Source: Niabella soli DSM 19437 (GTDB taxonomy: Bacteria; Bacteroidota; Bacteroidia; Chitinophagales; Chitinophagaceae). Taken from it: a stretch of 64,000 bases of DNA. This document shows, in pieces, positions 3,799 through 59,764 of the stretch; positions within the stretch are counted from its first letter, which is position 1; each line of letters begins with the position of its first letter. A model generated the notes under the pieces. The model was not told the DNA's origin, ran no database searches, and saw only the letters and a program-made list of their open reading frames with translations. The DNA is taken from NCBI RefSeq assembly GCF_000243115.2, contig NZ_CP007035.1, positions 4,154,001-4,218,000 on the forward strand. The letters run 5' to 3'. The position numbers were made by a program, and so were the translations under genes.

Positions 3799-4245
3799 TT
3801 ATTCTGCAACTACCTCAAAATCTACCTCAGTAGCATGACCGCTACCAAAATCGATAGTAGCTTTGTAAGTGCCTAATTCCTTGATCTCATCGGAAATATG
3901 GATCTTCTTACGGTCGATTTCATAACCTTTTTGTTCGCGGATCGCCCGGCTTAACTGCAGGGTGGTAACGCTACCAAATATTTTACCGCTGGTTCCTGTT
4001 TTCGCGCCCAGTTTTAAAGGACCTTCTTTCAGTTTGGCAATTACGCTGTTGATCTCAGCCAGCATTGCGGCTTCTTTCTTCCGGGCCTGTTTCAGGCGTT
4101 CTTCCAGTTGCTTTTTATTGCTGCCGTTGTTCTCTACCGCTAATTTGCGGGGGATCAGGTAGTTACGGGCATATCCGTTTTTTACGTTTACTACCTCGTT
4201 GGCAGCGCCCAAATTATCTACATACTGAATTAAAATTACTTCCAT
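3799..4245 (-). CDS. rplI: 50S ribosomal protein L9
   Basis: Large-subunit ribosomal protein that binds 23S rRNA. The 148-residue length is normal. The N-terminal domain has the classic start MEVILIQYVDNLGAANEVVNVKNGYARNYL with conserved Gly and Lys residues, then a long connecting helix (about 45-75) and the C-terminal domain. The frame is open 21 codons further upstream, but the conserved L9 start is the ATG at 4245. It is the last gene of the rpsF-rpsR-rplI operon, separated from rpsR by 144 bp that contain an imperfect repeat. Confidence 0.97.
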   Translation of the reverse strand: MEVILIQYVDNLGAANEVVNVKNGYARNYLIPRKLAVENNGSNKKQLEERLKQARKKEAAMLAEINSVIAKLKEGPLKLGAKTGTSGKIFGSVTTLQLSRAIREQKGYEIDRKKIHISDEIKELGTYKATIDFGSGHATEVDFEVVAE

Positions 4246-4319
4246 TGTTGTTTTTTTAGTTCCCGGAGCCCAATCGGTGATTGTGACTGTCTGGCACCGC
4301 AGCGCCATTAGGGAGGGTT

Positions 4320-54373: not shown

Positions 54374-54386
54374 AGCAAGGAGTTTG

Positions 54387-54460
<74 letters not shown>

Positions 54461-54495
54461 AATTATTTTTTATTGTGAAGTCATTAGTTATTGAC

Positions 54496-54538
54496 CGAAC
54501 CAATGACCTTCCCGCCTTAGGCGCGGGGTGCTCTATCC
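54496..54538 (-). pseudogene. Second tRNA remnant
   Basis: Matches the remnant at 54067-54127 in the anticodon-like hairpin (CCTAA loop) and start of the T-arm, and keeps the D-arm end GGATAGAGC. The acceptor and most of the T-arm are missing. It lies between tRNA-Arg and the trp promoter. Confidence 0.65.
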
Positions 54539-54652
54539 TCCCGGTGGCTATCAGGAGAGCCATCGGACCCTGACTCCCAGGGGTGATGGAGGCGCAAATA
54601 TAGACCAAAAATCCCTTTTTTTGATAAACAAGGCCTTAAACGCGTAAAAAAT

Positions 54653-54683
54653 TTGCTGATTTTATTTTTGGAATTTATATTTG
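54653..54683 (+). promoter_or_regulatory. trp operon promoter
   Basis: TTG at 54653-54655, a 20-nt spacer, then TATATTTG at 54676-54683: a full match to the Bacteroidota promoter. The expected start point (about 54688-54690) falls on or beside the ATG of the leader peptide, so that message would be nearly leaderless. Confidence 0.72.
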
Positions 54684-54689
54684 CTGCAA

Positions 54690-54749
54690 ATGAATTTTGT
54701 AAAAAACAATAATTGGTGGTGGCATAACAACGCTTTCGGGGTGCTGTAA
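54690..54749 (+). CDS. trpL: trp operon leader peptide
   Basis: A 19-codon frame reading MNFVKNNNWWWHNNAFGVL. Three consecutive TGG codons (54714-54722) sit just before the first arm of a hairpin, as in classic attenuation leaders. The frame ends with TAA at 54747-54749. It lies between a consensus promoter and a terminator, 95 bp ahead of trpE. Low tryptophan would stall the ribosome at the Trp codons and free the downstream antiterminator strand. Sequence and position are seen; attenuation is inferred. Confidence 0.85.
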   Translation: MNFVKNNNWWWHNNAFGVL

Positions 54750-54806
54750 TGCTATTGTCCAGTATTGTAACAATATATTCAAACCCCGGTGCTACCGGGG
54801 TTTTTT
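54722..54806 (+). promoter_or_regulatory. trp attenuator with competing hairpins
   Basis: Strand 1 GCATAACA (54722-54729) pairs with strand 2 TGTAATGC (54745-54752), one A-A mismatch. Alternatively CGGGGT (54737-54742) pairs with ACCCCG (54783-54788), the antiterminator. The terminator is AAACCCCGGT / ACCGGGGTTT (54781-54803) with a 3-base loop, followed by TTTTTT. The pairing choices are mutually exclusive, as expected for ribosome-controlled attenuation. Confidence 0.75.
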
Positions 54807-54843
54807 GTTGATCGCTCTCAAACAGAACAAAGAAATAAAACGG

Positions 54844-56259
54844 ATGAAAAAAATAAAAATTATAACTGAAGTGCAAACAATGCTGGCGGATGTTTTTACG
54901 CCCGTGGGCATTTACCTGCGCCTGCGCGACCGTTTTCGCGACACCATCATGCTGGAAAGCGCCGATAATAATGCCACTAACAATAGCTGGTCTTTTATTG
55001 GCGTTAATGCTATCGCCGGCATTGAAATGATTTCCGGTGATACGATCGATTGTAAATTGCCGGGCCAGACCGCTGAAAAAATACAGCTTTCCGGATCCCG
55101 GAAAATAGCGGAGGTGCTGGCAGGTTTTATGGATCATTTTGAAGTGGAGCCCCACGAACAAAAGGAAGCGCGTTATGCCCAGGGGGTATATGGGTACACC
55201 ACTTATGACGCCATCCAGTTTTTTGAGACCATCCCCGGCAGCCGTTTTAAAAACAGCGCGGCAGATATTCCTTTATTACGCTATCGGTTGTATCAGTATA
55301 TCATTGCCATTAATCATTTTAAAGACCAGTTGTTTTTGCTTGAAAATAAAATAGCAACTATTAAAAGCGAAAAAGAAGCGCTGCTGTCGATTTTGAAAGG
55401 AAGAGATGTTCCGGTCTATCCGTTTAAAGCTATAGGAGCGGAGGCGTCAAATATGACCGACGAAGAGCATCGCGCTATGGTGCGTAAAGGAATTGCGCAT
55501 TGCCACCGCGGCGATGTATTCCAGATCGTATTGAGCCGTCGGTTTACCCAGCAATTCAGCGGGGATGAATTCAATGTGTACCGGGCCCTCCGCAGCATCA
55601 ACCCGTCACCATATCTTTTCTTTTTTGATTATGGCGATTATAAATTAATGGGCTCTTCACCAGAATCGCAATTGATCATCCACCGGGGGAAAGCCACCAT
55701 ACATCCGATAGCCGGCACTATTAAACGCACGGGCGATGATACAACAGATGCCGAGCAGACCCGCATCCTGGAAGCGGATCCGAAGGAAAATGCAGAACAT
55801 GTAATGCTGGTAGACCTTGCCCGCAACGATCTCAGCCGTGGCTGCAGCGATGTGCACGTAAGCCATTTTAAAGAAGCGCATTACTATTCGCATGTCATCC
55901 ATTTGGTAAGCGAAGTAAACGGAACCGTTCAGGCGCATACCAATCCTTTTGATCTGTTTGCAAAAACATTTCCGGCGGGCACTTTAAGCGGCGCCCCCAA
56001 AATAAAAGCCATGGAGCTGATCAGTTTATTTGAGCCCACCGCACGCAGTTTTTATGGTGGCGCCATCGGCTTTATGGGCTTCGATGGCAGTTGCAACCAG
56101 GCGATCATGATCCGCAGCTTTTTAAGTCGTAATAATACTTTAACCCGCCAGGCTGGCGGCGGTATCGTAGCTGCCAGTAATCCCGAAGGCGAGTTGCAGG
56201 AAGTGATCAATAAACTCGGCGCTTTAAAAAAGGCCATCGTGGAAGCCGAAAATATTTAA
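54844..56259 (+). CDS. trpE: Anthranilate synthase component I
   Basis: Converts chorismate and ammonia to anthranilate with TrpG, the first step of tryptophan synthesis. The 471-residue length is normal. The N-terminal tryptophan-binding motif is kept as MLES (LLES-type, about residue 36), which implies feedback inhibition. The chorismate-binding domain shows INPSPYLFFFDYGDYKLMGSSPE, HPIAGTIKRTGDD, LVDLARNDLSRGC, and TLSGAPKIKAMELI. The frame is open to 54805, but the ATG at 54844 matches the family. Confidence 0.96.
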   Translation: MKKIKIITEVQTMLADVFTPVGIYLRLRDRFRDTIMLESADNNATNNSWSFIGVNAIAGIEMISGDTIDCKLPGQTAEKIQLSGSRKIAEVLAGFMDHFEVEPHEQKEARYAQGVYGYTTYDAIQFFETIPGSRFKNSAADIPLLRYRLYQYIIAINHFKDQLFLLENKIATIKSEKEALLSILKGRDVPVYPFKAIGAEASNMTDEEHRAMVRKGIAHCHRGDVFQIVLSRRFTQQFSGDEFNVYRALRSINPSPYLFFFDYGDYKLMGSSPESQLIIHRGKATIHPIAGTIKRTGDDTTDAEQTRILEADPKENAEHVMLVDLARNDLSRGCSDVHVSHFKEAHYYSHVIHLVSEVNGTVQAHTNPFDLFAKTFPAGTLSGAPKIKAMELISLFEPTARSFYGGAIGFMGFDGSCNQAIMIRSFLSRNNTLTRQAGGGIVAASNPEGELQEVINKLGALKKAIVEAENI

Positions 56260-56373: not shown

Positions 56374-56943
56374 ATGAAATTACTCGTTTTTGATAATTAC
56401 GATTCCTTTACCTACAACCTGGTGCATATGGTGGAAAAGATCCTGCATCAGAAAGTAGAAGTGCACCGTAATGACCAGATCCCTTTGGAAGCTATAAAAC
56501 AATATGATAAAATAATTTTATCGCCGGGCCCCGGCATCCCCTCGGAATCGGGATTGTTATTACCGCTGATCAAAGAGTATGCAGCTTCCAAATCCGTACT
56601 GGGCGTGTGTTTGGGCCAGCAAGCTATTGGCGAAGTGTTTGGCGGGTCGCTGTATAACCTGCCCCATGTCTATCATGGAATTGCCACCAATTGTAAAATC
56701 ATAAAACGTTCCGGGAACCTTTTTGACGGCATTCCGGACGGGTTTGAGATCGGGCGTTATCATTCATGGGTGGTGGCTCCCGAAAATTTTCCGGCCGACC
56801 TGGAAATTACAGCGGTGGATGATAATGATATGATCATGGCACTACGGCATAAACAATATGATGTGCAGGGGGTGCAGTTTCATCCGGAAAGCGTGTTAAC
56901 CCCACTGGGGGAAACGATCATACGGAATTGGCTGAAGCAGTGA
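56374..56943 (+). CDS. trpG: Anthranilate synthase component II (glutamine amidotransferase)
   Basis: Supplies ammonia from glutamine to TrpE. The 189 residues form a class I glutamine amidotransferase: LSPGPGIPSESG (about 49-60), the nucleophile Cys in GVCLGQQAIG (about residue 78), and the catalytic His and Glu in VQFHPESVLTPLG. A 114-bp gap from trpE holds a dispersed repeat word. Confidence 0.96.
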   Translation: MKLLVFDNYDSFTYNLVHMVEKILHQKVEVHRNDQIPLEAIKQYDKIILSPGPGIPSESGLLLPLIKEYAASKSVLGVCLGQQAIGEVFGGSLYNLPHVYHGIATNCKIIKRSGNLFDGIPDGFEIGRYHSWVVAPENFPADLEITAVDDNDMIMALRHKQYDVQGVQFHPESVLTPLGETIIRNWLKQ

Positions 56944-57094: not shown

Positions 57095-58096
57095 ATGAAA
57101 AAAATGAAAAAAATATTATCGATATTATTTGAGCACAAAACGCTGGACCGGTCGACCGCCCGGGAGGTGTTGGTGAATATTGGCAAAGGGGTTTATAATG
57201 AGCACGAAGTAACAGCATTTATGACCGTGTACCTGATGCGCAGCATCACCCTGCAGGAACTGCAAGGGTTCCAGGAAGCACTGCTGGAACTCTGTGTGCC
57301 GCTGGATTTTGGCGGAATCGATACCATTGATATTGTAGGCACCGGTGGCGATGGGAAGAATACGTTTAACATTTCCACGCTGTCCTGTTTTATTGTTGCC
57401 GGCACAGGACATAAAGTGAGTAAACACGGAAATTATGGCGCTTCCACGGTTAGTGGCGCATCCAACCTGGTGGAATCCCTGGGGTATAAATTTAAGAATG
57501 ATCAGCAAACCCTGCAGCGCGAACTGGAAGCTGCGGGCATTTGCTTTTTGCATGCCCCGCAGTTTCATCCGGCGCTGAAAAATGTAGGTCCCATTCGCAA
57601 AAACCTGGGGCTGCGTACGTTTTTTAATATGCTGGGCCCCCTGGTAAACCCGGCCTTTCCGTCCTTTAGTATTATTGGTGTATACAACCTGGAAATGGCG
57701 CGGCTGTACAATTATCTTATGCAACAACAGACAAAGAATTTTGCTATCGTTCACGGACTGGATGGATATGATGAAATTTCATTGACGGGGGATTCCAAAA
57801 TTATTACAGTTGCCGGGGAGCGTATCTTATCTGCTATGGAGCTGGGTGGCAGGGAAGTAGGTCCGGAATCAATTAAAGGCGGCGATACCGTAGCGGCAGC
57901 GGCAAAAATATTTTCGGATATCATACAGGGGAATGGCACGCCGGAACAGGAAGCGGTGGTGCTGGCAAATGCTGCCGTGGCGCTGGAGGTAACGGGTGCC
58001 TACCCGGATTATGCAGCGGCATTTGATGCGGCAAAAGAAAGCCTGCGGGCAGGTAAAGCGTATCAATGCTTACAGAAATTAATTGCATTGCAGTAA
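57095..58096 (+). CDS. trpD: Anthranilate phosphoribosyltransferase
   Basis: Transfers phosphoribose from PRPP to anthranilate. The 333 residues carry the PRPP-binding VGTGGDGKNTFNIST (about 86-100), the KHGNYGASTVSGASN anthranilate and metal region, and FNMLGPLVNPA. Two start codons three codons apart (57095, 57104) cannot be distinguished; both lie in repeated ATGAAAAAA words. Confidence 0.96.
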   Translation: MKKMKKILSILFEHKTLDRSTAREVLVNIGKGVYNEHEVTAFMTVYLMRSITLQELQGFQEALLELCVPLDFGGIDTIDIVGTGGDGKNTFNISTLSCFIVAGTGHKVSKHGNYGASTVSGASNLVESLGYKFKNDQQTLQRELEAAGICFLHAPQFHPALKNVGPIRKNLGLRTFFNMLGPLVNPAFPSFSIIGVYNLEMARLYNYLMQQQTKNFAIVHGLDGYDEISLTGDSKIITVAGERILSAMELGGREVGPESIKGGDTVAAAAKIFSDIIQGNGTPEQEAVVLANAAVALEVTGAYPDYAAAFDAAKESLRAGKAYQCLQKLIALQ

Positions 58097-58343: not shown

Positions 58344-59132
58344 ATGAATATATTAGATACGATCATTGCGCACAAAAGAACAGAAGTGGCCGCACGGAAG
58401 CAACAAACAGCGTATAAAATGCTGGAAACAACAGCGGCCTTTCAGTTGCCGGTGCGATCGCTGGCGGCATCACTGCAGCAGCCCGGCAGCACGGGTATTA
58501 TAGCAGAGTTCAAGCGCAAATCACCCTCCAAAGGATTTATCAATAAAGAGGCAGATGTGGCAACGATCACAGCGGCGTATAGCCGCTTTGGTGCTGCGGC
58601 GCTTTCGGTTTTAACCGATGAAAATTTTTTCGGTGGCTCCCAGAAGGATCTTGTTATTGCCCGGGAGCAGGCGATCCCCATTCTGCGAAAAGATTTTATT
58701 ATTGATGAATACCAGATTGTAGAGGCAAAATCTATAGGGGCTGATATTATATTGCTGATTGCGGCTTGTTTATCTCCGGCCGAGGTAAACCGGTTGGCGA
58801 ACTTTGCAGCTTCCCTGGGATTGGAAACGATATTGGAACTGCATGCGGAAGAGGAGTTGGGACATATTTGTAGTGCCACCCGGATTGTGGGTATTAATAA
58901 TCGCGATCTTAAAACTTTTAAGGTAGATATTGACCGGAGTTTGAAAATGGCGGAACAGATTCCCGGCGATCGTATTAAAATTGCAGAAAGCGGCATCGAT
59001 AAGATTGAAGATATTTTACTGTTCCGTAAAAACGGCTTTAAAGGATTTTTGATCGGTGAATATTTTATGAAACAGGAAAATCCGCCCATGGCATTTGAAA
59101 ATTTTGTAACCCAATTACAGGCGCAGCAATGA
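58344..59132 (+). CDS. trpC: Indole-3-glycerol phosphate synthase
   Basis: Closes the ring of CdRP to indole-3-glycerol phosphate. The 262-residue barrel has the catalytic KRKSPSKG (about 53-60), VLTDENFFGGS, LRKDFIIDEYQI, GINNRDLKTF, and ESGI near the end. It overlaps trpF by 4 bp (ATGA). Confidence 0.97.
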   Translation: MNILDTIIAHKRTEVAARKQQTAYKMLETTAAFQLPVRSLAASLQQPGSTGIIAEFKRKSPSKGFINKEADVATITAAYSRFGAAALSVLTDENFFGGSQKDLVIAREQAIPILRKDFIIDEYQIVEAKSIGADIILLIAACLSPAEVNRLANFAASLGLETILELHAEEELGHICSATRIVGINNRDLKTFKVDIDRSLKMAEQIPGDRIKIAESGIDKIEDILLFRKNGFKGFLIGEYFMKQENPPMAFENFVTQLQAQQ

Positions 59133-59764
59133 ACGCTCCTTTGATAAAAGTTTGTGGGATGACGCAGTTGCAGCAGGTGGCGCAACTGGCAGCGCTGGGC
59201 GTAGATTATGCAGGGTTTATTTTTTACCCGGCTTCGCCGAGATATGTTGCAGGAAAAATAGAACCTGCGGCATTAAAGGCGCTGGCCGGTATCAAAAAAG
59301 TTGGAGTATTTGTTAACGCAACTGTTGAAACGATACGGGAAACAGTAGCAGCCTACGGACTGGAGGCTGTTCAGTTACATGGGGAGGAGACGCCGGAGTT
59401 CATAAGATCATTGAACATAAATGCGAAAATTATTAAAGTGTTCCGCCTAAAAGGAGATGAGGATATTGCAGGTCTGACTGACCCTTTCGAAAAAGAGGCT
59501 GCCGCTTTTTTATTCGATACTAAAGCGAAAGAATATGGGGGCACGGGTCAGAAGTTCGACTGGTCGGCCCTGCGCTCGGCTGTCCTGGGAAAATCCTGGT
59601 TCCTAAGCGGCGGCATCGGACCAAAAGATATAACAGATTTGAAATCGTTCCTTGCGGATCAGGAAGTGTATGCGCTGGATGTGAACAGCCGGTTTGAAAC
59701 AGCGCCGGGTATAAAGGATATGGGATTGATTGAAAAGTTTATAAAGGGATTAAAAGGGGAATAG
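59129..59764 (+). CDS. trpF: Phosphoribosylanthranilate isomerase
   Basis: Amadori isomerisation of phosphoribosylanthranilate. The 211 residues begin KVCGMT (7-12, with the catalytic Cys), then DYAGFIFYPASPRYV, VQLHGEE, LFDTKAKEYGGTG with catalytic Asp, and LSGGIGPKD. It is the last trp gene in this block. trpB and trpA, which often follow in related genomes, are not here. Confidence 0.96.
   Translation: MNAPLIKVCGMTQLQQVAQLAALGVDYAGFIFYPASPRYVAGKIEPAALKALAGIKKVGVFVNATVETIRETVAAYGLEAVQLHGEETPEFIRSLNINAKIIKVFRLKGDEDIAGLTDPFEKEAAAFLFDTKAKEYGGTGQKFDWSALRSAVLGKSWFLSGGIGPKDITDLKSFLADQEVYALDVNSRFETAPGIKDMGLIEKFIKGLKGE

Follow-up and report, generated by a model that had tools for sequence, protein, structure and literature searches.

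Ribosome-mediated attenuation is textbook regulation in Enterobacteria. According to the cited passage of a 2010 survey, the only leader-peptide systems known ahead of the Firmicutes case presented in it came from Proteobacteria and Actinobacteria (PMC2965389); a listing of the same year gives Bacteroid-trp (RF01692) as a Bacteroidetes RNA with a probable cis-regulatory role (Weinberg, PMC2864571). For F. psychrophilum, the quoted part of a transcriptome study reports strong clues that amino acid operons are attenuated through leader peptides (PMC9723704). The original prediction of a trp attenuator at the locus presented here held such a find to be notable for the phylum, an assessment that is weakened by the presence of a Bacteroidetes trp leader family in Rfam since 2010 and by the F. 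psychrophilum clues. In the literature covered, with most subscription papers lying outside its scope, we recognised no experimental study of RF01692 or of the leader described below.

The window analysed, a 64,000-nucleotide stretch of the Niabella soli DSM 19437 genome, contains a promoter, a short ORF with three consecutive Trp codons, alternative stems, an intrinsic terminator and trpE, recognised through sequence, translation, folds and Pfam and all present as had been predicted (Table 1). We propose that together they very probably attenuate transcription of the trpEGDCF operon in the classical, ribosome-mediated way. The elements, their conservation and the covariation of their pairing are directly apparent from sequence and comparison: the locus has a run of end-product codons, a terminator before the first structural gene and tryptophan genes downstream, while mutually exclusive structures chosen by ribosome position are seen in silico only.

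Table 1. Features of the trp leader and the operon downstream, in window coordinates.
Feature	Coordinates	Strand	Evidence
-33 promoter element, TTG	54653-54655	+	Sequence; TTG at near equal spacing in 73/82 family loci
-7 promoter element, TATATTTG (TAnnTTTG)	54676-54683	+	Sequence; -7-like box in 82/82 family loci
Leader peptide ORF, 19 codons + stop, MNFVKNNNWWWHNNAFGVL	54690-54749	+	Translation; WW ORF in 154/173 trpE loci
Strand 1, contains the Trp codons, pairs with 54749-54768	54706-54725	+	Fold; family alignment
Three consecutive Trp codons, presumed ribosome stalling site	54714-54722	+	Sequence, translation
Antiterminator arm UCGGGGU, inside the last leader codons	54736-54742	+	Fold; covaries with terminator 5' arm in family
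Partner of strand 1, begins at last base of leader stop codon	54749-54768	+	Fold; alignment
Intrinsic terminator, hairpin 54781-54803 and six-T run 54801-54806	54781-54806	+	Sequence, terminator scan, family comparison
Terminator 5' arm ACCCCGG, antiterminator target	54783-54789	+	Fold; family covariation
trpE, anthranilate synthase component I	54844-56259	+	Pfam PF00425, PF04715
trpG, glutamine amidotransferase	56374-56943	+	Pfam PF00117
trpD, phosphoribosyltransferase	57095-58096	+	Pfam PF00591, PF02885
trpC, indole-3-glycerol phosphate synthase	58344-59132	+	Pfam PF00218
trpF, PRA isomerase	59129-59764	+	Pfam PF00697

The RNA spanning 54687-54805 folds at -40.7 kcal/mol versus -25.2 kcal/mol (sd 3.4) for shuffled sequences (z -4.56; 0/200 as good), with the GGGG near the end of the ORF sitting within the inner stem of the first hairpin. 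The Trp codons were expected to adjoin the first stem; their association with it holds, with the correction that in this fold they lie inside its 5' strand. In an alternative fold of 54735-54790, UCGGGGU pairs with ACCCCGG at -16.4 kcal/mol, a value reached by 3 of 200 shuffles. Between leader stop and terminator hairpin lies a 31-nt spacer. When strand 1 is removed and RNA starting at 54735 is folded with the complete terminator present, the terminator is the best fold; the switch must therefore be kinetic and decided during transcription, as the choice of structure likewise is in textbook attenuation. A terminator scan over the whole 6 kb gave no excess relative to shuffles (6 vs. 7.0), and the case consequently rests on the strength, place and conservation of this particular terminator. 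As for the neighbourhood, trpA is found approximately 13 kb past trpF in the same genome (G000:C1:4227232-4227921), apart from the trpEGDCF group that the leader would control; upstream of the leader, in divergent orientation on the minus strand, is a tRNA-Arg (tct) gene (window 54386-54460), and the minus-strand segment beside it, at about 54490-54600, resembles a degraded tRNA copy as judged by eye.

In the proposed mechanism, the Bacteroidetes-type promoter would start the RNA a few nucleotides 5' of the leader ATG and the ribosome would load at the 5' end. With charged tRNA-Trp scarce, it would stall at the three Trp codons and mask strand 1, so that the CGGGG near the end of the ORF stays free to pair with CCCCG of the terminator 5' arm and polymerase reads into trpE. 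With Trp plentiful, a ribosome at the stop codon would instead cover CGGGG and the terminator would form, as it would on ribosome-free RNA, where the Trp-codon hairpin would sequester CGGGG. Here the 5' end, translation, stalling and Trp response of the leader are what we infer from the arrangement of its parts.

TrpE was searched for in 117 genomes of the same family (86 with a match) and 247 genomes of the phylum (211 with a match), and we read 85 of the 86 family loci (the partial match of G059 being left out), each of the 50 additional matches within the same order or class and 34 loci hand-picked from other classes. Trp-rich frames or paired stems missing from trpE homologues had been named as evidence that would speak against the attenuator, and the outcome was the opposite: the stems are kept, and a short ORF with consecutive Trp codons (WW) precedes trpE in 154 of 173 fetched loci, with the reverse complement giving 2/173 and mononucleotide shuffling, done five times, giving 0-2. 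Four of the 173 are duplicates (L086-L089 equal L032, L039, L040 and L076); under a second rule (ATG/WW), 150 of the 169 distinct loci qualify, namely 82/85 in the family, 47/50 in the class and 21/34 beyond it. Two of the latter, L142 and L156, were discounted because their WW ORFs were taken to be chance occurrences, leaving 148 credible cases and 15 of the 34 other-class loci without a leader, including all of L164-L173. Read by eye, two family loci outside the rule have a GTG start (L013) or a single Trp (L066) and are matched by the family covariance model described below at 102.5 and 55.4 bits, and in the third, L081, no leader was found; in the class, L120 and L126 fail the WW rule yet possess a WLW ORF and a terminator, again read by eye. 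A terminator of -9 kcal/mol or below follows the leader in 147 of the 148 credible loci versus 24/148 after dinucleotide shuffling; the reverse complement, with terminator-like hairpins in 81/148, is a weak control. A chance origin of the leader is ruled out by its fold against shuffles and by the ORF and terminator controls.

The family covariance model (R1) was built from an alignment (A1) of 44 leaders, drawn from the 81 in the family that have a terminator; A1 includes the window, whose own score is thus circular, and two loci outside A1 (L003 and L016) are matched at E 1.3e-12 and 3.5e-16. Across the 117 family genomes, R1 has matches in 85 at E<=0.01 and in 72, one each, at E<=1e-4. Of these 72, 71 lie upstream of TrpE, 5-558 nt from a same-strand match; the remaining one sits at the end of a contig, and its genome has no TrpE match at the applied cut-off; 15 of the 86 TrpE genomes have no R1 match at E<=1e-4. 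A second trp leader in the window's genome was considered and rejected, with R1 finding one place only; a sequence-pattern search of this genome returned 9 places, one of them the window leader, against 5 for a reversed control pattern. In the class, R1 gives a weak match of 31.9 bits in L097, the third locus there to fail the WW rule; the match lies on the minus strand at locus 4117-4269, some 1.2 kb upstream of trpE. The sequence directly 5' of this trpE looks coding by eye, and the leader may precede another gene there.

The pairing on which the switch would depend covaries. In 81 family loci, matched antiterminator arms and terminator 5' arms score -14.18 against -12.07 (sd 0.24) when permuted, a value reached in 0/2000 permutations; kinship of the sequences inflates such tests, and the terminator 3' arm, which has equal ancestry, serves as an internal control without signal (-9.11 vs. 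-9.01; 659/2000). Permutation gives 0/2000 for both arms in 47 class loci, and 0/2000 for the 5' arm and 288/2000 for the 3' arm in 19 loci of other classes. Relative to shuffled leaders, pairing reaches p<=0.05 with the 5' arm in 67/81 family loci and with the 3' arm in 11/81, and p for the 5' arm is above 0.10 in nine; in L073, L075 and L076 the leader pairs better with the 3' side of the terminator (p 0.01-0.03) than with its 5' arm (p 0.28-0.36). The six pairs of the Trp codons with the segment past the stop are kept in 40-44 of the 44 aligned family leaders, with changes only on the free side.

Folding with a ribosome in place, modelled just before the terminator 3' arm emerges, points in the same direction. 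The ribosome was taken to reach 9 nt beyond the last Trp codon or beyond the stop, the usual value for the footprint. The source cited for this position, in the part used, has a ribosome cover up to 12 nt past the stop (PMC4833913). In the window, upstream RNA holds the terminator 5' arm with a modelled probability of 0.86 when the ribosome is stalled, 0.36 when it is at the stop, a value above the family mean, and 0.003 without a ribosome. The corresponding means are 0.80, 0.21 and 0.45 over the 81 family loci, 0.72, 0.19 and 0.44 over the 47 class loci and 0.74, 0.25 and 0.52 over the 19 loci of other classes. Stalled minus stop exceeds 0.2 in 74/81, 43/47 and 16/19 loci, respectively, and the difference is absent in 7/81 family loci. 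Shuffling the spacers gives probabilities of 0.46-0.50 for the family loci and 0.53-0.55 for those of the class; in this model the switch therefore differs clearly, though not hugely, from chance.

These results bear on the reading in which the terminator and the Trp-rich ORF coexist without translational control and the locus is a plain leader terminator or answers to a repressor, T-box or RNA-binding protein. The terminator is indeed strong by itself, and the evidence gathered here is drawn from sequence. Conversely, two to four consecutive Trp codons are found in nearly every relative in the family and class, the complementary arm occupies a position that would be covered by a ribosome at the stop codon, and against Rfam at gathering scores the window yields tRNA only, with no T-box or other leader family; we judge this reading very unlikely. 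Ribosome-mediated attenuation, as originally predicted, is supported by the WW ORF, the covariation, the alignment and the folding of the switch in relatives.

A further alternative retains stalling and attributes it to the nascent peptide together with free Trp, in the manner of TnaC, instead of to uncharged tRNA-Trp. The Trp run of the 82 family loci identified under the WW rule has three codons in 72 loci, two codons in 9 and four codons in one, and the residues that follow are conserved, reading HTN in 41 of the 82, as a peptide effect would have it. The bases after the Trp codons, however, join the first hairpin, which can explain this conservation, what follows WWW is different elsewhere in the class, and induction by Trp makes little sense for a biosynthetic operon, all of which renders peptide-dependent stalling extremely unlikely. 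Codon-position entropies before the Trp run (1.22, 1.20 and 1.40 bits) give a weak coding signal only. At the other end of the ORF, GGGG precedes the leader stop in 63/82 family loci and is read in all three frames (43, 14 and 6 loci; e.g., RGL, SGV, KGL), and hence it is the RNA and not the peptide that is conserved there: the end of the peptide at GGGG reads as a by-product of the kept RNA.

For tRNA-Trp-dependent attenuation of this kind the ribosome must board a leader that appears to begin almost at its start codon. In the window, 20 nt separate TTG from TATATTTG and 6 nt separate TATATTTG from the leader ATG at 54690; a sigma-70 site scan of the 6 kb does not list this promoter, as the differing Bacteroidetes consensus would lead one to expect. 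An element near -7, as given in the cited part of PMC7366714, would place the transcript start a few nucleotides 5' of the ATG, and this suggests a predicted 5' UTR of about 0-5 nt. The near-leaderless start singled out by the original prediction stands as a conserved geometry, its 5' end being a prediction from the promoter: a -7-like box ends 4-10 nt 5' of the leader ATG in 74 of 82 family loci (mode 7 nt, 44 loci), compared with 2/82 in a control scan at the trpE start and 13/82 in one placed 60 nt downstream of where the Trp run starts, with box plus TTG in 3/82 and 5/82, respectively. Over the window plus 400 kb of the same genome, a strict box lies at 4-10 nt in 11 of 313 ORFs of at least 120 codons; 46 of these ORFs have a strict box in the 60 nt upstream, 11 of them at 4-10 nt, and such spacing is thus uncommon, not rare, among genes with a visible box. 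For comparison, the quoted figures are, in B. thetaiotaomicron, about 3.7% for 5' UTRs shorter than 10 nt (PMC7366714) and, for F. psychrophilum, a leaderless share of 5.5% (PMC9723704). The class shows a bimodal distance: of the 43 loci with a box, 21 have 4-10 nt and 20 have 16-21 nt, and the near-leaderless form is therefore not universal. That the transcript instead starts at or after the leader ATG, leaving an untranslated remnant ORF, draws on the mere 6 nt between -7 box and ATG and on a start placed by prediction, and is extremely improbable given that the 4-10 nt distance is conserved (74/82) along with an intact frame, that the -7 element itself implies a start upstream of the ATG (PMC7366714, cited part) and that S. 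meliloti trpL, with its RNA start at the ATG, is a known working case (PMC7298713, cited part).

The attenuator proposed for trp has candidate counterparts in the same genome. A his leader, MKNLIHTHHHFTDLPK, stands before hisG with its ATG at locus position 1218 and a terminator present (L195, G000:C1:1342137-1345601), and a Phe/Tyr-rich, pheA-type leader, MKSTRFYTWFYFSFFFFGAKPGSLLLK, with a terminator and its ATG at locus position 1254, stands before the prephenate dehydratase gene (L235, about G000:C1:267264). The box ends 7 nt from the ATG in the former and 10 nt in the latter, and no -33 TTG was found for either. In relatives, a short HHH ORF occurs in all 15 hisG loci from 14 genomes, and the same box layout in 13/15 hisG and 11/13 prephenate dehydratase loci; scans of the ilvD and homoserine dehydrogenase neighbourhoods gave no near-leaderless leader, the flanks maybe being too short for fused genes.

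Variation of another kind was encountered in a second family of the class (f5). In 26 of its loci (among L093-L136) the terminator loop is nearly fixed as ATCAC and variants, ending in TCAC in 25, and is complementary to the leader segment around the stop codon (GTGA in 26/26, CGTCGTGA in 16). Matched leaders pair better than permuted ones with the loop and 3' arm (23/2000 reach the matched value) and not with the 5' arm and loop (985/2000), which suggests, on modest numbers of close relatives, that the f5 antiterminator pairs with the loop and the 3' arm of the terminator, opposite to what the window's family shows. A joint proposal, on whose truth we are evenly divided, is that near-leaderless leaders are a general attenuator design in the family (trp, his and phe; 6-10 nt) and that the phylum also has two antiterminator layouts built on one ancestral trp leader. 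If so, ribosomes would enter at the extreme 5' end and pace RNA polymerase without a Shine-Dalgarno site.

Leader-peptide trp attenuation thus appears to precede trpE in nearly all family and class genomes examined, and the present Rfam model misses a whole family. The most interesting feature is the near-leaderless start, and the points worth passing on are the family missed by Rfam and the shared near-leaderless design, which offers a clean case for studying ribosome loading on near-leaderless leaders, and coupled transcription and translation, in bacteria that barely use Shine-Dalgarno sites.

Among the known systems, the window's best Rfam resemblance is to the Trp_leader family RF00513, at 26.5 bits and under the gathering score of 41. 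Like the enterobacterial trp leader, it has Trp codons, alternative hairpins and a terminator before trpE; it differs in its near-leaderless start, its Bacteroidetes promoter and its three tandem Trp codons. In Sinorhizobium meliloti trpL (rnTrpL), the RNA starts at the ATG of the Trp leader and attenuation controls trpE(G), as given in the cited part of PMC7298713; it belongs to another phylum, and the likeness considered here is one of layout. RF01692 is likewise a trpE leader RNA in Bacteroidetes; its hairpin carries the Trp codons on the 5' strand and precedes the terminator 5' arm. At its gathering score of 49 bits it matches 4/20 and 7/20 sampled loci (two being shared, 11/38), all 11 of them in f5, of which 14 loci were sampled, and none of the 117 genomes of the window's family under Infernal's stricter filters, with the window's own genome lacking a match at E<=1. 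Weak matches (E<=1) in this family number 23, of which 13 fall on trp leader places, the best being a trpE leader at 41.7 bits; in the other direction, R1 was run against 38 of the 50 class loci and matched 34 at 18-44 bits (E<=1). The window's family targets the terminator 5' arm, whereas the family matched by RF01692 fits the loop and 3' arm better, with modest support. Both probably descend, as remote branches, from a single leader, and the window's family is an uncatalogued branch of a known kind, outside the present RF01692 model.
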